A DNA stretch of 50,603 nucleotides, from assembly GCA_902825965.1 (NCBI GenBank), contig CADEDA010000022.1, forward strand, positions 1-50,603, given 5' to 3'. Below the pieces are notes generated by a model, which saw only the letters and a program-made list of their open reading frames with translations, did not search any database and had not been told where the DNA came from. Position 1 is the first letter of the stretch, and the number at the start of each line of letters is the position of its first letter. The translations under genes and the position numbers were made by a program. Positions 6,079 through 15,790 of the stretch are shown one piece after another. Source of the stretch: an uncultured Gemmatimonadota bacterium. Its GTDB lineage: Bacteria; Gemmatimonadota; Gemmatimonadetes; Gemmatimonadales; Gemmatimonadaceae.

Positions 6079-8128
<2,050 letters not shown>

Positions 8129-8131
8129 GGG

Positions 8132-8160
8132 CAGGTGGAAGGAGTGAGGGGTGAGGGGGG
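8132..8160 (+). repeat. Left inverted repeat flanking four-helix-bundle gene
   Basis: CAGGTGGAAGGAGTGAGG then a G-run. Its first 18 bases match the reverse complement of 8761-8778 at all but one position. Purine-rich, and possibly G-quadruplex-prone. Confidence 0.55.
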
Positions 8161-8190
8161 AGGCCGTTCGGCCTCCCCTCTTCCTTTTTC
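8157..8190 (+). terminator. Rho-independent terminator of hppA
   Basis: Nine-bp stem GGGGAGGCC / GGCCTCCCC (8157-8165 and 8170-8178) with loop GTTC, followed by the T-rich TCTTCCTTTTT. It lies 28 bp after the hppA stop and also just beyond the 3' end of the convergent four-helix-bundle gene. Confidence 0.85.
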
Positions 8191-8193
8191 CCG

Positions 8194-8688
8194 TCAGCGA
8201 TCCAATGCGTCCTCGGAACCTCTGAGCGACGGGGAGGCGATACGTGGTTGCCGCGGCATCGTCGTCTTCGGCGCTGCCGCAACGGACGGCGCTGGGTGCA
8301 CGCGCGCGTTCGGGGGGCGGCGTCTCTCGCGGATGCGTTCGAGAACGCGCTTCCGTAGGCCCATCAGCATGCCTTGGACTTCCGACAGGCGTGCTTCGAG
8401 GATGGCGTAGTCTTTCGCGGCGATCGCGCTCAGGTCCTTTGCAAGCAGCAGGTGATAGTCGGCCTCGCGCGCCGAGGCCAGAGCGATCTCGAGGAAGCGG
8501 TTGAACTGGGGATCGGTCGAGTGTCCGGCACCCTCCGCGATGTTCGCAGGGATCGAGGCGATGGCCCGTCGAAGCTGCGAGCACAGCACCGGATACCTCC
8601 GCGCGACGACGCCGTCCGTGACTGCATAGGCACGAAGCGTGAGCGCGTGCGCTTTCTCCCACACGGAGAGCTTCCGAAAAGGGTACAT
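8194..8688 (-). CDS. Four-helix-bundle protein (23S rRNA intervening-sequence / S23 family)
   Basis: A 164-residue protein of the S23/IVP family (TIGR02436-like). Seen: the N-terminal FRKLSVWEKAHALTLRAY, then QLRRAIASIPANIAEGAGHSTDPQFNRFLEIALASAREADYHL, which is the family core. The C-terminal ~45 residues are Pro/Arg-rich and probably disordered. Start MYPFRKLSVW was chosen because family members begin here; an upstream in-frame ATG would add 17 non-family residues. Relatives form oligomeric four-helix bundles and include the Avd accessory protein of diversity-generating retroelements, but no reverse transcriptase is nearby. The molecular role is unknown. The gene is oriented against its neighbours and bracketed by inverted repeats, which suggests it arrived as a unit. 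Confidence 0.88.
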   Translation of the reverse strand: MYPFRKLSVWEKAHALTLRAYAVTDGVVARRYPVLCSQLRRAIASIPANIAEGAGHSTDPQFNRFLEIALASAREADYHLLLAKDLSAIAAKDYAILEARLSEVQGMLMGLRKRVLERIRERRRPPNARVHPAPSVAAAPKTTMPRQPRIASPSLRGSEDALDR

Positions 8689-8746
8689 GTCGCGAAGGTG
8701 CGCGGGGGGAAGCAGACAGCCCGCATCGGAAGCCCGCAAGCCGTTA

Positions 8747-8778
8747 CCTTACACCTCCCACCTCACACCTTCCACCTG
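8747..8778 (+). repeat. Right inverted repeat flanking four-helix-bundle gene
   Basis: CCTTACACCTCCCACCT continuing CACACCTTCCACCTG. Its reverse complement starts CAGGTGGAAGG and mirrors the repeat at 8132. It also forms the 5' leader of ychF, directly before its start region. Confidence 0.55.
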
Positions 8779-8787
8779 TTCCTGCGC

Positions 8788-9888
8788 ATGCTCAGCTTAG
8801 GCATCGTCGGCCTCCCCAACGTCGGCAAGAGCTCCCTGTTCAACGCCCTCACCGCCGCCAAGGCCGAGGCCGCCAACTACCCGTTCTGCACCATCGATCC
8901 CAACGTCGGGGTGGTCACGGTGCCGGACAAGCGGCTGGATGCGCTCGCGGAGATCGTGAAGCCGGAGCGCACGGTGCCTGCGGCCGTGCAGTTCGTCGAC
9001 ATCGCCGGCCTCGTGAAGGGGGCGTCCAAGGGAGAGGGCCGCGGCAACGCCTTCCTGAGCAACATCCGCGAGACCGACGCGATCGTCCACGTCGTGCGCT
9101 GCTTCGACGACCCCGACGTGATCCACGTCGATGGTTCGGTGAACCCGGCGCGCGATCGCGAGACGATCGAGTTCGAGCTCGCCCTGGCCGACCTCGGCGT
9201 GGTGGAGAAGCGGCTCGACAAGGCCAAGCGTGCCGCCAAGACGGGCGACAAGGCGGCGGCGACCGAGGCCGCAGCCCTGGAGAAGGCGCACGCGCCGCTC
9301 AGCGAAGGGCGCGCACTCTGGCACGTGACGCTCAGCACCGAGGAGCGCACGCTGCTGCAGCCCCTGCAGCTGCTCACGCTCAAGCCCATCCTCTACGCCG
9401 CCAACGTCACGGACGCCGAGCTCACCGGCGCGGAGGGGCCGCACGTCACGGCGCTGCGCGCCGCGATCGCTGCCGACCATGAACCCGCGGAGGTCGTCAC
9501 CTTCTCGGCGAAGATCGAGTCCGAACTCGCCGAGTTGCCGGCTGAGGACCGCGCGGAGTTCCTCGCCTCGCTCGGGCTGGAGTCCGCCGGGCTCGACCGC
9601 CTCATCCGCGCGGGCTTCCACCTGCTCGGCCTGCACACCTACTTCACGGCCGGCGAGAAGGAGGTGCGCGCCTGGACGCTGCATCAGGGGGACACTGCGC
9701 CCAAGGCCGCCGGCGTCATCCACTCCGACTTCGAGCGCGGCTTCATCCGCGCCGAGACCGTGGGCTACGACGACTTCATCGCGCTGGGCGGCTGGAAGGG
9801 CGCCAAGGAGAAGGGCGCGGTCCGCGCGGAAGGCAAGGAGTACGTCGTGAAGGACGGCGACGTGCTCTTGTTCCGCTTCAACGTCTGA
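8788..9888 (+). CDS. ychF: Redox-/ribosome-associated ATPase YchF (OLA1 family)
   Basis: A 366-residue Obg-related P-loop ATPase that associates with ribosomes and the proteasome or stress pathways in characterised species. Seen: Walker [10 protein letters not shown] at residues 6-14, switch region [35 protein letters not shown] (G3 region), a helical coiled-coil insert, and a C-terminal TGS domain with [12 protein letters not shown]...[15 protein letters not shown]. Start [11 protein letters not shown] chosen because the family begins here; upstream in-frame Met codons lie within the repeat and the opposite-strand gene. No good Shine-Dalgarno precedes the ATG. The 3' end overlaps the convergent nucleotidyltransferase gene by 11 bp. 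Confidence 0.96.
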
Positions 9889-11008
9889 GCGCCGACCACA
9901 GGCGCCGGAACGGCCGCAGGACGGGATAGAGCGGGAGCAACGCGTCCGGCAGCGGCAGCGCCGTCCACTCCTGCAGCGTGGGATCGAACGTCGCACGGGC
10001 CAGCAACCGCGCGCGGTCGAGTGGCCGCTCCGTCCAGGCCAGGTCCCAGGACAGTGGCGGTCGCCACGCGGTCTCGCCGCGTACCCACAGCGCCTCCACG
10101 GTCTCCACCAGTCGCGGCAGCGTCGCGTCGCGTCCCACAGCCTCGGCCAGTTCGGCCGGCAGCGCGAGGTCGAGCGCGCGGGCCATCAACGCCGCCCCGA
10201 GCCGCAGCGCGCGGGCGCCGCCGACCGCGTGTGCACGCGCGTGCGCCGCGACGAGCGCGCGCGGCTCGCGCTGCGCCAGCGCGGCGAACACGGCAAGGTC
10301 CTCCAGTGCACTCCAGCCATGCTTGGACGCGTGCTGCGCGAGCAGTGCGAGCGTATCCGCCAGGCTGGGGACCGGCACCAGGCGTCCGCCGATCGCGACG
10401 TTGGTCGCGCGTGTGAGCACCCCGTCCACGTCGAGCCGCCCGGCATAGCGCCGCGCGCTGAACGCCCAATGCAACTCGAGCAGCGGTGGTTCGGCCTCAC
10501 CGACGAACTCCGACGCGCCGAGTCCGGCGAAGATCGCGCGCTCCTGGGCGGCAGTCATCGCGTGACGCGGCCGCCAGCCCAGCGCGAGCACCACGCGCCG
10601 CGCGGCCTCCACCTGCGACGGTGGCACCACGAGGTCGAGGTCGTGGAAGGTCCGCGCGGCCGGATCGCCCCAGGCCTGCACCGCGAGCGCCGGCCCCTTC
10701 CAGGCGAGCACCGGGATCGATGCCGCGTGCATCGCGTCGAGCAGGCGGTGCAGTGTCGCGACGGCCGCCAGACTGCGGATCGCGCGCGCGCGTGCCGGTG
10801 CGTCGGGCGGGAGGAGCGCCTGGAACAGGGGGGCGACCCGGTGCCGCTCCGCCAGGTCGAGGAACGCGGCGCGCTCCTCGGGAGCGATCGTCGCGGGGTC
10901 GAAGCCTCCGCCGGTGACGCGCGCGCGGACCGCAGCGCACAGCAGGTCGAGCGGACGCGACGCGGCCGCGCTCAGTCGTTCACCCGGTGCGACGCCACCA
11001 GAAGCCAC
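9878..11008 (-). CDS. Nucleotidyltransferase family protein of the RiPP locus
   Basis: A 376-residue protein of the NTP_transf_5 type (Uncharacterised nucleotidyltransferase, PF14907-like). Seen: VLAWKGPALAVQAWGDPAARTFHDLDLVV (residues about 98-127), whose KGP and DLD motifs are the family hallmark with two candidate metal-binding aspartates, then SLADTLALLAQHASKHGW. This family recurs in lasso-peptide clusters next to HPr-kinase-like kinases, where it is proposed to extend or nucleotidylate phosphorylated peptide. It is the last gene of the operon. The GTG start lies inside the end of precursor B (29-bp overlap in another frame). The actual reaction here is unknown. Confidence 0.85.
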   Translation of the reverse strand: MASGGVAPGERLSAAASRPLDLLCAAVRARVTGGGFDPATIAPEERAAFLDLAERHRVAPLFQALLPPDAPARARAIRSLAAVATLHRLLDAMHAASIPVLAWKGPALAVQAWGDPAARTFHDLDLVVPPSQVEAARRVVLALGWRPRHAMTAAQERAIFAGLGASEFVGEAEPPLLELHWAFSARRYAGRLDVDGVLTRATNVAIGGRLVPVPSLADTLALLAQHASKHGWSALEDLAVFAALAQREPRALVAAHARAHAVGGARALRLGAALMARALDLALPAELAEAVGRDATLPRLVETVEALWVRGETAWRPPLSWDLAWTERPLDRARLLARATFDPTLQEWTALPLPDALLPLYPVLRPFRRLWSALRR

Positions 11009-11210
11009 CGTCGACGCGCCCCGGCGCGAACAGATTGCGCTGCGTCAGCTCCGCGGCCGACCCATGCACGTGCAGCGCCGGCGCGCGGTACGGTCGGCGC
11101 GACACGGCACCCACGCCGCTCGCCACCGACCCGTCGCGCGCGGCGAGGTTCGGAGTCGGAACGGACGGATCGTGCTGCGCGTGCCGCACGGGCTCCAGAT
11201 GCTGCGCCAT
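10980..11210 (-). CDS. Putative lasso-type RiPP precursor peptide B
   Basis: A 76-residue peptide with leader and core character. The leader carries RRPYRAPALHVHGSAAELT, matching the lasso leader pattern YxxPxLxxxG...LT (YRAP, L, G, LT). The predicted core follows at N or L after LTQR: LFAPGRVDGGFWWRRTG. If the macrolactam begins at Asn the acceptor Asp is residue 9; if at Leu, residue 8; both are normal ring sizes. It aligns with precursor A across RRPYxxPxL, LTxxN, GR-hydrophobic-DG and an identical RRTG terminus. An ATG with GAGG about 10 bases upstream was chosen; the frame is open further upstream. It sits between the kinase and nucleotidyltransferase genes. Confidence 0.75.
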   Translation of the reverse strand: MAQHLEPVRHAQHDPSVPTPNLAARDGSVASGVGAVSRRPYRAPALHVHGSAAELTQRNLFAPGRVDGGFWWRRTG

Positions 11211-11293
11211 CGGGACGGACCTCGGACAGGTGGATCGAACGGCGGGCCTGCACCTTACAGACGCGCGCCGCCGGGAGAAGATAACGCCGCCAG

Positions 11294-12262
11294 TCAGCGC
11301 TGGTCGTCGCGTCGCGTCACGAAGTGCGAGACGACGTCCACCAGTGCCCCGAGGCGTGCGGGATCCTCGTGCGGCACCAGTCGCCACACCGGCACGGCTG
11401 CGGCGAGTCGGCCCACGGCGCGAAGCTCCTCCGCCCGTTCACGATCGTCGAGCAGGTAGTTCGCGTACGAGTTGCTGACCAGACCGAGCAGTGCCTCGCC
11501 GCCGGCGCAGCGCTCCACACGCGGCGCGTCGGCATCGGCGACCCGCGGCGCGAACAGCAGCAGCGCACCGAGCGGTACGGCGTCGCGGGCGAACGCGAAT
11601 CCCGCCTCGGCGAGCGAGAGTCCCCGCTTCTCGAATGTCGGCGTCAGTGGTGCCAATCTTGAGTCCGGGCCGAAGAGCAACCGCTCGCTGTCCTCCCAGA
11701 TCCGCAACTGGTCGAGGGCCGGCGTGCTGCACCAGCCGGACGCGGCGTCCTGCACGACGAGGATGTCGTCGGTGATCACGGGGTGGCCGCGTTGCGCGCA
11801 GGCAGTCACGAGCGTGGACTTCCCCGCACCGCCGGGCCCCACGAACGCCACCGCGCGCCCCCCGATGACGCAGGCACTCGCATGCAGCGCGAGCCGTCCC
11901 CGCCGTCGCAGCGCGTACCCGAGCACCGGTCCGACGAGGAAGGTCATGGCGTCGGCGAGGGTGAGCGGGGCGTCCCAATCCGCCCACACGGCGCGCCCGT
12001 CGGTACCGAGATGGAACCGGATCCCTTCGCTGTAGCGCAGCGCGATCGCCGCCACACTCGGCAGGGACCACACCTCGATCGTCGCCCGTCCGTCCGCGTC
12101 GGGCTCGGAACGATGGCGCAGCGTGCCCGCCACCTCGCCCCAGGGTGGCCGCGCGCCGAGCGCGATCGTCACGTCGGCCTCGCCCGTCGGCTCGACCGCC
12201 ATGAGCCCCGGCAGCGGCGATGCGCTGCGCAGCCGGAGTCCGAATGCGAGGTAGTCAGGCAC
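11294..12262 (-). CDS. HPr-kinase-like lasso peptide kinase
   Basis: A 322-residue HprK-like kinase. Seen: LALHASACVIGGRAVAFVG followed by Walker A GPGGAGKST at residues 142-150, and the ITDDILVV motif (Asp165/Asp166) used for metal and catalysis. These kinases in lasso-peptide clusters (ThcoK-type) phosphorylate the C-terminal residue of the precursor. Here the cores end in RRTG, so the accepting residue is uncertain; the Thr is a candidate. GTG start at 12262 overlaps the macrolactam synthetase stop by 8 bp; an upstream in-frame start would lie inside that gene. About 80 bp separate it from precursor B. Confidence 0.88.
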   Translation of the reverse strand: MPDYLAFGLRLRSASPLPGLMAVEPTGEADVTIALGARPPWGEVAGTLRHRSEPDADGRATIEVWSLPSVAAIALRYSEGIRFHLGTDGRAVWADWDAPLTLADAMTFLVGPVLGYALRRRGRLALHASACVIGGRAVAFVGPGGAGKSTLVTACAQRGHPVITDDILVVQDAASGWCSTPALDQLRIWEDSERLLFGPDSRLAPLTPTFEKRGLSLAEAGFAFARDAVPLGALLLFAPRVADADAPRVERCAGGEALLGLVSNSYANYLLDDRERAEELRAVGRLAAAVPVWRLVPHEDPARLGALVDVVSHFVTRRDDQR

Positions 12263-14078
12263 GCGCGGCCTCGGGCTGCGCGAGCCAGCGCGCCACCTCG
12301 AACACGCGCCATGCGGCGAGCATCTCGCTCGGGTCCTCCGTCTCCTCGAGGGCGCGGCGCCAGGCCGGCACGTCGACGAGGTGGTCCATGGGATGCGCGA
12401 GCGCGCGCGCCGGCCCGCCGCGCGCCCGCCAGGCCGACATGCCCGCTTCGAGCGCACCGGTGACCGGCGTCTTGGGACGCGAGAGCACGGCCGGGGGCAG
12501 CGCACCCTCCATCACGCGACGGAGCAGGTGCTTCTCCTGGCACCAGGGGATGGGCGGCAGCGCGAACACGAACGCGAAGAGCCGTGCATCGAGCAGCGGT
12601 AGCACCACGGTGAGCGGGGCGCCGGTGACGCTCGGGTCGTCGATCGCGAAGAGCGTCTCCCACACGGGCTGCTGGTGTGCACGCGCCGCGAGCGGCCGCA
12701 GGCGGTGCCGGGCGGGCTCGCTCGGCATGCCCTCGCCGTAGCGCGCGCGGAGCTCGGGGAGCATCCAGCGCGGGGCGGCCCAGTCGCCCCGCCGCGACGC
12801 GACACCGCGGCCGGTGAACTCGCGCACGCCGATCCAGGGCCGTCGGCCGGTGCGCGCGCGATACGCGCGCCAGGCATGCAACGTCTCGCCGATCGGGCGC
12901 GAGCGCACGAGCGTGAGCAGGTCCGGCGGCGCGAGCAGTGCGTCGCCGTCCTCCCCGTCGATCGTCACCGGAGCCTCGGCGGCCAGTTCGCGCGCGCGCT
13001 GCCGCCACTGCGCCAGCTCGGGGTCGGCGACGGGTTCGGGGGTGCGCAGCGAGGCATCGTCACAGTGGGCCAGCAGGCCGTCGGCCTCCAAGAACGCGAC
13101 ACGCTGCGGGATCGCGAGGTGTCGCGCGACTTGCTCCGCCCACTTCCGCTCGTCGTCGGCCACGAGGCGTTCATGCGACACCGTGAGTGCACTGAGCGCG
13201 ACGTGTGCACAGTGCCGTCGCGCCGTCGCCGCGATGGTCGGCGAGTCGATGCCGCCGCTGAGTTGGATGGTCGCGCGCGGCGCGCGCAGGCGATCGACGA
13301 CCGCCGAGGCCAGCAGGGCGCGGAACTCCTCGAGCACCTCCGCGTCGCTGCCACCCAGTCGCGGCGCCGGGTCCGGGAACTCCCAGTGCCGCGATTCCGC
13401 CCGCGGTGCGTCGCCGCGCCACACCCACTGGTGGGACGGCGGCACACGGCGCACCCCGCGCCGCGCCGTGCGCCACGGGTCGAGGATCGATCCCGTGCGC
13501 AGGAACTCCGCCAACGCCTGTTCATCGGGCTGGTCGTCCACGCCCGGCAGCGCGAGCAGGGCGTCGAGGTCGTTCGACACCGCAACGAAGCTGGTGGTCT
13601 CGGCCACGAAGAGCGGCTTCACGCCGAAGGTACCGCGCGCCGCGACCAGGCTGCGGGTGCGCCGATCCAGTGCCGCGAATGCGAAGTCCCCGATCAGGCG
13701 CTGCGCGGCGGCCGTTCCCCAGAGCCGGAGCGCCGCATGACAGAGCGCCGCATCGGTCGCCTCCGTCGGCAACACTCGACCCGCGGCACGCAGGTGCGCA
13801 CGGAGTTGGGCGCGGTCATCGAGCCGCAGGTCGGCCGCGAGCAGGAGATCGTCCCGCTCGAGCGGCAGGTCATCCTCCGCGCCGACCGCATCGGTGAACG
13901 CCGTGTGGATGGCAAGTGCGTCCGCCGTCCGGACCACACGCTGGCCCTCCGGCCCCCGGGGCGTGAGGCGCGCCACCGCGGCGCGCACCACGCCGGGCGC
14001 GAAGCGCCCGTCGGGCGCACCAGCCGTCGGCTCGGCCGCCGACGCGTCGCGCCACCACCAGAGGAGGAATCCGCTCAT
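12255..14078 (-). CDS. Asparagine-synthetase-like lasso macrolactam synthetase (C protein)
   Basis: A 607-residue AsnB homologue, the usual lasso cyclase that adenylates an Asp/Glu side chain and forms the ring with the core N-terminus. Seen: an N-terminal glutaminase-like fold without the catalytic Cys2 (starts MSGFLLWWW), IGDFAFAALDRRTRSLVAARGTFGVKPLF near 129-157, the PP-loop SGGIDS at 274-279, and a divergent GEDGDALL motif near 365 where true asparagine synthetases have GEGADELF. The lost glutaminase Cys is expected for a lasso cyclase. ATGA overlap with the methyltransferase gene upstream. Confidence 0.9.
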   Translation of the reverse strand: MSGFLLWWWRDASAAEPTAGAPDGRFAPGVVRAAVARLTPRGPEGQRVVRTADALAIHTAFTDAVGAEDDLPLERDDLLLAADLRLDDRAQLRAHLRAAGRVLPTEATDAALCHAALRLWGTAAAQRLIGDFAFAALDRRTRSLVAARGTFGVKPLFVAETTSFVAVSNDLDALLALPGVDDQPDEQALAEFLRTGSILDPWRTARRGVRRVPPSHQWVWRGDAPRAESRHWEFPDPAPRLGGSDAEVLEEFRALLASAVVDRLRAPRATIQLSGGIDSPTIAATARRHCAHVALSALTVSHERLVADDERKWAEQVARHLAIPQRVAFLEADGLLAHCDDASLRTPEPVADPELAQWRQRARELAAEAPVTIDGEDGDALLAPPDLLTLVRSRPIGETLHAWRAYRARTGRRPWIGVREFTGRGVASRRGDWAAPRWMLPELRARYGEGMPSEPARHRLRPLAARAHQQPVWETLFAIDDPSVTGAPLTVVLPLLDARLFAFVFALPPIPWCQEKHLLRRVMEGALPPAVLSRPKTPVTGALEAGMSAWRARGGPARALAHPMDHLVDVPAWRRALEETEDPSEMLAAWRVFEVARWLAQPEAARA

Positions 14079-15244
14079 CCCTCCGCCCCTTCAGCGATCC
14101 GGGCGATCTCGCGCGAGACGAAGGCGAGCGCGTCGCGCTCCTCGGCGAAACGCGTGGGCGCGTCGCGTCGGAGTGCGGCGGCGATCTCCGCGAGCGAGCG
14201 CCGTCCGTCGACGCGGGCGAGCATCGCCGCGTGCAGGTCCACCGCGGTGTCGCGCGCCGGGACCGCGGTCGCGGCACGGCGCGCGCGCCGCTCCGGCGAC
14301 AGCAGCCGTGTGCCGAGGTCGGTCCCGCGTTGCACCGCGGATGCCGCGCCGGACTGCGGGCGGCACTCCACCTCCCAGCTCCACACGTACTCGCCGCCGT
14401 CGTGCGTCGCGCGCATGCGGATGGTGACGCGATCCCCCGGCTGCACGGCGACGGGCTGGGCCAACGGGAACCATGCGGCGTCGTAGACGGTCGCCGGACT
14501 GGTGGGCCCGCTCGAGATCCGCGCGCCCCCGGCGAGGTCCGCGTCGAACCACGCGCCGATGCCTGCCATCTCCCCGGCGTTCCGCACGACGCACTCCGTG
14601 CTGCCGCGGAGATCCGTCGGCAGTGCCTGACGCAGCTCCCAGGTCGCCCAGCACCCGGCGTCCGCGAGCGGATGCAGCGCCGAGGCGCGCACTCGCCGCC
14701 AAGCCGCCGTGGCTCTTGCGCGCACGGCACTCAGGTCGAGCTCGCTCGGCGGCGCGGCGAGCATGTCAGCGGGGGTGTCGATGGGCCGCTCGCGCGCACC
14801 CTCGGGTGCCATGCAGGGCGCCACCATGAGGTGGTCGCGCAAGGCGATGACTCGCGCGTCGGGAGCGAGCAGCCGCGCGTGTGCATCCGCGAGTGCGGCC
14901 GCGCGCCGCCCCATGAGCGGCGAGACACCGCGCAGGTCCTCGAGCAGCACGTCGGCACGTCGCGGCAGCTCGACCTGGTCGCCGCGGCGCTGGAGGAAGG
15001 TGATGCGGTCCGCCACACCATGCCGCGCGGCGAGCGCCGGCCCCAAGGCGATGGCGTCGTTGGGCTCCACGGCCCAGACGTGTGCCGCGCCCGCGAGCGC
15101 CGCGTGCACGGCGAAGTAGCCGAACCCCGTGCCGAGTTCGAGGACATGATCACCGGGGCGCAGCGTCGCGCGGATCGCGGCAAGGTAGGCGGACGTGCGC
15201 TGTCGGTCCTCCACCATCGCCAGATAATCCGGCAGGTCGTACAC
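14075..15244 (-). CDS. PRMT-like SAM methyltransferase with C-terminal PqqD/RRE-like domain
   Basis: A 389-residue class I methyltransferase resembling protein arginine methyltransferases. Seen: an N-terminal DYLAMVEDRQRTSAYLAAI like the PRMT entry helix, motif I VLELGTGFGYFAVHAALAG with post-I VWAVEP, an acidic motif LLEDLRG in the double-E loop region, and a C-terminal beta-barrel with GAWFDADL, then ISSGPTSPATVYDAAWFPLAQPV and PGDRVTIRM, following the PRMT barrel layout. Residues about 325-389 (VDLHAAMLARVDGRRSLAEI) look like a PqqD-type or winged-helix domain. It could methylate Arg in the precursor cores, both of which contain GR and RR; that is inference. GTG start immediately follows the precursor A stop. 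Confidence 0.75.
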   Translation of the reverse strand: MYDLPDYLAMVEDRQRTSAYLAAIRATLRPGDHVLELGTGFGYFAVHAALAGAAHVWAVEPNDAIALGPALAARHGVADRITFLQRRGDQVELPRRADVLLEDLRGVSPLMGRRAAALADAHARLLAPDARVIALRDHLMVAPCMAPEGARERPIDTPADMLAAPPSELDLSAVRARATAAWRRVRASALHPLADAGCWATWELRQALPTDLRGSTECVVRNAGEMAGIGAWFDADLAGGARISSGPTSPATVYDAAWFPLAQPVAVQPGDRVTIRMRATHDGGEYVWSWEVECRPQSGAASAVQRGTDLGTRLLSPERRARRAATAVPARDTAVDLHAAMLARVDGRRSLAEIAAALRRDAPTRFAEERDALAFVSREIARIAEGAEG

Positions 15245-15463
15245 TCAGCCGGTCCGGCGACCCATCCAGCCGTCCATTCGCCCGGTCATGCTGTTGACCT
15301 CCGTCAGCGCCGCCGCCGCACCGAAGCGTGCCAGCGTCGGCGGGTGGTACGGTCGTCGCGGGGTCGCCCGCGGCGCGGCGGCCGGGGGCAGGCTCGACGA
15401 CGACGGGTCGGCGGTCGGTTCAGGGCGAAGAGGGCGCTCCATGGGAAGCAATGTGCGACCCAC
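15245..15463 (-). CDS. Putative lasso-type RiPP precursor peptide A
   Basis: A 72-residue peptide (65 if the ATG at 15442 is used). The leader ends RRPYHPPTLARFGAAAALT, fitting YxxPxLxxxG...LT. The core region LTEVN-SMTGRMDGWMGRRTG has Asp at position 8 counted from Asn or 7 from Ser, and ends in the same RRTG as precursor B. Only 12 bases separate it from the PqqD gene, with no clear ribosome binding site, suggesting re-initiation after the upstream gene. Its stop TGA abuts the methyltransferase GTG. The flanking biosynthetic genes and the shared pattern with precursor B support it as a real coding region. Confidence 0.75.
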   Translation of the reverse strand: MGRTLLPMERPLRPEPTADPSSSSLPPAAAPRATPRRPYHPPTLARFGAAAALTEVNSMTGRMDGWMGRRTG

Positions 15464-15475
15464 GGCGCGGCAGCG

Positions 15476-15790
15476 TCAACCGCGTGGCGGCGTTGTGACG
15501 CGTGAGACCAGCGCGCGCCCCTCGAGCTCGGTGACCAGCGTCACCAAGTCGGCGAAGGCCCGCGCGTCATCGACCTCGTACTCCTCGACGATGGTCGCGG
15601 TCAGCTGCGCGAGCGAGACCGGCGCACGCAACAGCTCCCAGACCCGCGCGCCCACGCCATCGAGCCCGTAGTACATGCCATCGTGCATCGAGAGGATCAC
15701 GGCCTCGGCGTCGAGCGCTGCGGAGACCTGTGACTCCGACGCGACCACGACCGTGTCGCGGGAGAGCGGGAGCGGAGTGGCGTCGGGCAT
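15476..15790 (-). CDS. PqqD family lasso peptide biosynthesis protein (B1, RRE)
   Basis: A 104-residue PqqD-like RiPP recognition element. Seen: VILSMHDGMYYGLDGVGARVWELL followed by SLAQLTATIVEEYEVDDARAFADLVTLVTELEGRALV, the typical PqqD winged-helix pattern. In lasso systems the B1 protein binds the leader YxxPxLxxxG motif and delivers it to the B2 protease; no B2 gene is visible in this window. The ATG at 15790 was chosen over upstream in-frame codons that lie across the divergent gene. It is the first gene of the minus-strand RiPP operon; the divergent TPR gene starts about 50 bp away. Confidence 0.88.
   Translation of the reverse strand: MPDATPLPLSRDTVVVASESQVSAALDAEAVILSMHDGMYYGLDGVGARVWELLRAPVSLAQLTATIVEEYEVDDARAFADLVTLVTELEGRALVSRVTTPPRG

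Follow-up and report, generated by a model that had tools for sequence, protein, structure and literature searches.

Known PRMT-type catalysis acts on protein arginine residues, and the 50,603 bp stretch of DNA from an uncultured Gemmatimonadota bacterium analyzed here (the window) raises the question of what an enzyme related to protein arginine methyltransferases (PRMTs) would methylate when its gene lies in a RiPP cluster of the lasso type. The initial annotation had described such an enzyme and proposed that it methylates arginine. The presence of a PRMT-like enzyme in a lasso-type cluster was strongly supported by the sequence profile, the predicted structure and the gene context. The cluster consists of the following features, all located on the minus strand:

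9878–11008, NTP_transf_5 protein (Pfam PF14907, 4.1e-34), kept in the cassette of relatives
10980–11387 (open frame; true start probably internal, near 11210), lasso precursor A2
11294–12505 (open frame; likely start near 12262), HprK-like peptide kinase (HprK-related kinase A, 3.8e-8)
12255–14078, Asn-synthetase-like lasso macrolactam cyclase, C protein (Asn_synthase, 5.9e-27)
14075–15244, PRMT-superfamily methyltransferase (MT) of 389 aa (profile, predicted structure, ORF call)
15245–15463, lasso precursor A1 (relatives share the leader motif and the tail; weak match to lasso_leader_L3)
15476–15790, PqqD/RRE (lasso B1) protein (Pfam PqqD, 4.7e-15)

Both hallmarks of lasso biosynthesis, the RRE (B1) and the Asn-synthetase-like cyclase (C), are present, and the NCBIfam lasso models are their best or near-best matches, although below the cutoffs: the window PqqD matches lasso_PqqD_Bac at 5.4e-17, under the cutoff of the model, and the best match of the cyclase is the lasso cyclase model with 166 bits, the cutoff being 525. 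The kinase contains the residues H...GKST...TDD, and the NTP_transf_5 protein belongs to the Pfam type found in kinase-type lasso clusters. The same set of precursor, PqqD, cyclase, HprK-like kinase and nucleotidyltransferase homolog, together with a C-terminal Ser/Thr, is known from the clusters of paeninodin (PadeK) and pseudomycoidin (PsmK/PsmN). Unlike them, the window cluster additionally contains a PRMT-fold MT and a basic residue before the Ser/Thr, and it has no B2. A phosphorylated lasso peptide is the probable product of this gene set.

Precursor A1 (leader ...YHPPTLARFGAAAALTE, predicted core VNSMTGRMDGWMGRRTG) fits the lasso pattern, with a YxxPxL...G...T leader, Thr at position -2 and a ring Asp at position 9 of the core, where Asp/Glu is expected at 7–9. 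The core of A2 (leader ...YRAPALHVHGSAAELTQ, predicted core RNLFAPGRVDGGFWWRRTG) has a near-identical counterpart in L034 and a similar one in L035. It should be mentioned that in A2 and in both cores of L040 the ring Asp is the tenth residue when counting starts just after Thr-x, one past the usual 7–9, unless the cores begin one residue further on; in A2 it would then be at position 9 and the core would begin at Asn, a first residue for which metanodin provides a precedent (PMC12670498). GR and RR dipeptides, pointed out in the initial annotation, were confirmed in both predicted cores.

The B2 leader peptidase is absent from the window cluster and from the clusters of its closest relatives, so that the mature product is not assured. 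More distant clusters with MT carry B2 (L039–L041, L085–L089 and others). A strong B2 match elsewhere in the genome was revealed in G016, G009, G005 and the window's own genome (G000); in the latter the only strong PF13471 match is on contig C2 and belongs to a second lasso cluster (L042). This second cluster comprises B2, PqqD, cyclase and kinase. The B2 matches of G014 (92% complete) and G006 (77%) are only weak and lie in long frames. We infer that for the window cluster B2 acts in trans or another peptidase serves, and the peptidase may be shared with the second lasso cluster.

The MT ORF is real: it is kept at 31–63% identity in eight relatives, whose contigs carry this cassette whole or as far as they reach. 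Searches with the single sequence gave only weak PRMT matches in Pfam and NCBIfam (PRMT5_C and PRMT_C, below cutoff), too little on their own to settle the family. A profile built from a 25-row alignment of homologs in related genomes matched PRMT6 with E=1e-55 over positions 3–275, spanning the SAM domain and the barrel, and PRMT6, PRMT2, PRMT8, PRMT1 and CARM1 were all matched at about 1e-45 to 1e-55 over the catalytic core. The AlphaFold model (mean pLDDT 90, pTM 0.85) was compared by Foldseek and VIA-align. The comparison could have pointed to another class of methyltransferase; only PRMTs were found among the 50 matches listed, with VIA-align Z of 31.9 to PRMT2 and 31.5 to yeast HMT1 (rmsd 2.4 over 300 residues). 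Taken together, the profile and the predicted structure settle the assignment of MT to the PRMT fold.

The domain organization comprises (i) a Rossmann SAM domain at about 1–145, (ii) a PRMT-type beta-barrel at about 183–314 and (iii) a PqqD-like helical C-terminal domain at about 326–386. The region 145–180, where a dimerisation arm would be expected, is modelled in part, with pLDDT below 50 at 152–162. The N-terminal helix, SAM motif and beta-barrel named in the initial annotation are thus present; in the alignment of relatives Y2, Y7, M10, D13 and R16 of the helix and G38xG40xG42 of the SAM motif are invariant, and residue 60 is always acidic (E60 in the window). These features and the catalytic fold are shared with the type I PRMTs (PRMT1, PRMT2, PRMT6, CARM1, HMT1), from which MT differs in having neither the double-E nor the THW loop and in possessing an Asp-x-Arg loop, the C-terminal domain and a location in a RiPP cluster. 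The C-terminal domain could be aligned to PqqD profiles over their helical portion (hhalign, one comparison: probability 60%, E=8.6e-5), while the kinase used as a control in the same comparison gave no match. It is fused in most members and absent from L040, L087, L094 and L095. One putative relative, L003 from Flavobacteriales, found in the homolog search of genome contigs, proved to be a chance match within an unrelated 857-aa frame and was discarded.

The double-E pair of PRMTs is described as strictly conserved and as positioning the guanidinium group (PMC8623767). The acidic loop named in the initial annotation was not confirmed as a double-E loop. HMMER pairs the PRMT6 loop SEWMGYGLLHESM with vedlrGvlPlfedrl, and the window loop reads E102-D103-L104-R105-G106 ... 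G112, so that the first Glu is replaced by Asp (D103) and the second by Gly (G112). The first position is Asp in all 31 lasso-associated homologs. At the second, Glu is kept in a single one of the 31; it is otherwise mostly G, A, S, H, Q, W, T, R or F, and D once. R105 is near-invariant in the same set, with His in L041. The THW motif has become TVY in the window, with Tyr or His at the Trp position in the lasso clade. An outgroup clade (L100, L101, L180, L181; L177–L179) retains both E..E and the Trp of the THW loop. As judged from these alignments, the lasso-associated MT clade has lost a defining PRMT feature, the double-E clamp, which lowers the claim of an arginine methyltransferase without abolishing it; and since D103 and R105 stand in place of the clamp, we are unwilling to favour arginine as the acceptor.

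To see what the precursors have in common, cores were gathered by the leader motif: 29 from 19 clusters with MT, 30 from clusters with the kinase and without MT, and eight from kinase-less clusters. The C-terminal tail [K/R][S/T]x0-3 was found in 28 of the 29 cores accompanied by MT, compared with 15 of the 30 with the kinase and no MT (Fisher p = 6e-5, taken without correction for shared ancestry). Thus, half of the latter cores (phylum survey, L105–L164) bear the tail, and none of the eight kinase-less cores does, which suggests that in the surveyed group a basic residue is often used beside the site of the HprK-like lasso kinase. In three related genomes, clusters that are sisters of those with MT and have no MT themselves keep the tail in six of six cores (KRRT, KRRT, TRRT, RKRT, NRTF, NRTF). 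Consequently, the idea that [K/R][S/T] is a methylation-site mark confined to MT clusters was rejected; the motif need not be the recognition site of MT, and the basic residue is linked, at a minimum, to clusters of the kinase type.

Arginine itself is not a constant feature of these peptides. It is absent from eight of the 29 MT-accompanied cores and, when any identified core is counted, from six of the 19 whole clusters; L168, L171 and L172, further clusters with MT, each yielded a single core and this has no Arg. Across the family Lys is about as frequent as Arg at the basic tail position. The ring GR varies even within the genus (GQ in A1 of L034, GN in L036), and, counted by eye, it occurs in 11 of 29 cores with MT versus four of six from MT-less sister clusters. 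For these reasons the RR/GR context, on which the initial annotation relied, is non-discriminating and provides no evidence for arginine methylation. Together with the clade-wide loss of the Glu pair, the Arg-less sibling cores and the retention of the basic residue where MT is lost speak against arginine methylation as it had been argued. It is possible in the window's clade, where the basic residue is Arg.

We propose, with moderate confidence, that MT, a SAM-dependent member of the PRMT superfamily whose active site has been remodelled, modifies the C-terminal tails of two lasso peptides of the kinase type. The kinase would phosphorylate the Thr of the tail (T16 in A1), and MT would act on this tail too, probably on the linear precursor, which would be brought to it by an RRE, either the PqqD protein or the PqqD-like C-terminal domain of MT itself. 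The PRMT fold, the intact SAM motif, the neighborhood kept in relatives, the grouping of clusters with MT in a single clade, the nearly invariant tail and the C-terminal domain all argue for this role, and precedents exist for lasso-tail kinases, for the nucleotidyltransferase homolog and for a C-terminal carboxyl methyltransferase (PMC9266682). Against it stand the persistence of the tail motif in MT-less sister clusters, the missing B2 and distant homologs that adjoin kinase and PqqD genes without a lasso cyclase and with a different peptide. The acceptor could be a basic side chain (that of Arg in the window cluster and of Lys in relatives) or the C-terminal carboxylate, each a tentative assignment, or, with less probability, a phosphate or sugar group; the rest of the probability lies elsewhere.

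The methyl group may go to the side chain of the basic residue that precedes the tail Thr/Ser (R15 in A1, with Lys as its counterpart in relatives) or to the arginine of the ring GR. This tentative reading, which is that of the initial annotation widened to Lys, is suggested by the PRMT ancestry of the enzyme and by the frequency of K/R before the tail S/T, higher in cores with MT than in those with the kinase and no MT. The window's clade, in which this residue is always Arg, has an extra loop acid, E102; we give this correlation little weight because it comes mostly from one clade. The reading has to contend with the lost double-E clamp, with the use of Lys besides Arg and the Arg-less clusters, and with a ring GR that is not conserved and a motif that is retained where MT has been lost.

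That MT forms a methyl ester at the C-terminal carboxylate, of either the precursor or the lasso peptide, is likewise a conjecture that we hold without much confidence. StspM and LasF, encoded by methyltransferase genes in lasso clusters, are carboxyl methyltransferases whose chemistry is possibly the same; the model of StspM, which provides the precedent in lasso pathways, was based on mitomycin 7-O-methyltransferase and has a His/Glu centre (PMC9266682). StspM is an enzyme type unrelated to the PRMT-fold MT of the window. Esterification accounts for the Arg-less cores and for the variety of terminal residues (G, T, S, A, R, F), and the near-invariant R105 and invariant Asp lie in the loop that bears the Glu clamp in PRMTs. 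The carboxylate is located zero to three residues from the conserved pair, however, so that the geometry would need to vary. We know of no carboxyl methyltransferase with a PRMT fold, which also counts against this reading.

It is rather improbable that the substrate of MT is a phosphate or sugar-phosphate which the kinase and the NTP_transf_5 protein would have attached to the tail Ser/Thr. MT does lie beside an HprK-like kinase wherever the contigs permit, also in distant cassettes without a cyclase, no MT was seen in the kinase-less lasso clusters of the survey, and R105 may bind phosphate; but clusters with the kinase and without MT are common, and to our knowledge no phosphate or sugar-phosphate methylation of a RiPP has been described. 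Finally, the lost double-E and THW loops and the PqqD-like domain fused in most members could point to a PRMT-like subunit that has no catalytic activity and acts as a scaffold or activator; this is very unlikely given the invariant G38, G40 and G42, the acidic residue 60 and the newly acquired invariant Asp and near-invariant Arg, which suggest an active site under selection.

The distribution of MT was followed in a wider survey, where MT of the lasso clade adjoins cyclase, kinase or PqqD genes. All clusters with MT fall into one clade of the cyclase and kinase tree. MT is missing at two places of this tree in genus g13, and no full-length homolog was found genome-wide in G196, G220 and G246 (completeness 94, 93 and 87%). 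Distant homologs (L098, L099, L102, L103, L174–L176, L182) are accompanied by PqqD and HprK-like genes in cassettes that lack a cyclase. Such neighbors resemble the HPr-rel-A system (HprK-related kinase A and a PqqD family chaperone), and the PqqD of L098 exceeds the cutoff of the HPr-rel-A model. These cassettes have neither cyclase nor B2 and contain a different short peptide. Peptides of the type RREFLLKLARGAxYxAPxVATFxVAPxLLAQ follow the distant MT homologs in these PqqD-MT-HprK cassettes:

L098, 8709–8951, plus strand
L099, 6614–6862, minus strand
L176, 8292–8528, plus strand
L174, 7575–7820, minus strand
L103, 9779–10312, plus strand

Cassettes and peptides may represent a separate RiPP-like system.

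Two further PRMT-like genes should be mentioned. A lasso-type cluster at L179 (G398:C8, about 7004–12319, minus strand) consists of cyclase, precursor, B2 and PqqD followed by a PRMT-like gene that retains the canonical double-E loop (SEIIGNEPLGE) and the Trp of the THW loop. Its core ends with SRGR; at L161, which showed no gene of this kind, a similar core ends with SQGI. This gene is a better candidate than the window MT for true arginine methylation. A search of plasmids for MT homologs retrieved only proteins from Tistrella; they belong to other PRMT-like types, in which a Glu is kept in the loop. At L183 (4001–10561), on plasmid pTM3 of Tistrella mobilis, a PRMT-like domain with the loop SEIIGPIGGCEGS is located within an NRPS-like frame.

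In the open-licence literature searched, no RiPP cluster with a PRMT-type enzyme was found, and MT is a real and apparently new enzyme, most likely a peptide-tailoring member of the PRMT superfamily in a kinase-type lasso cluster. We see an even chance that a PRMT-fold enzyme was recruited to a RiPP pathway and that the loss of the double-E pair and the gain of the Asp-x-Arg loop turned it to a non-arginine acceptor on the lasso tail (lysine, the C-terminal carboxylate or a phospho/sugar group). A clade in which the guanidinium clamp has been dismantled, beside an outgroup that retains it, offers a route to learn how an active site is repurposed. The proposed role of MT would add a methylated, probably phosphorylated type of lasso peptide; if arginine is methylated after all, the product would be a lasso peptide with a side-chain-methylated arginine, of which, in agreement with the initial annotation, no example was found in the open-licence literature searched.
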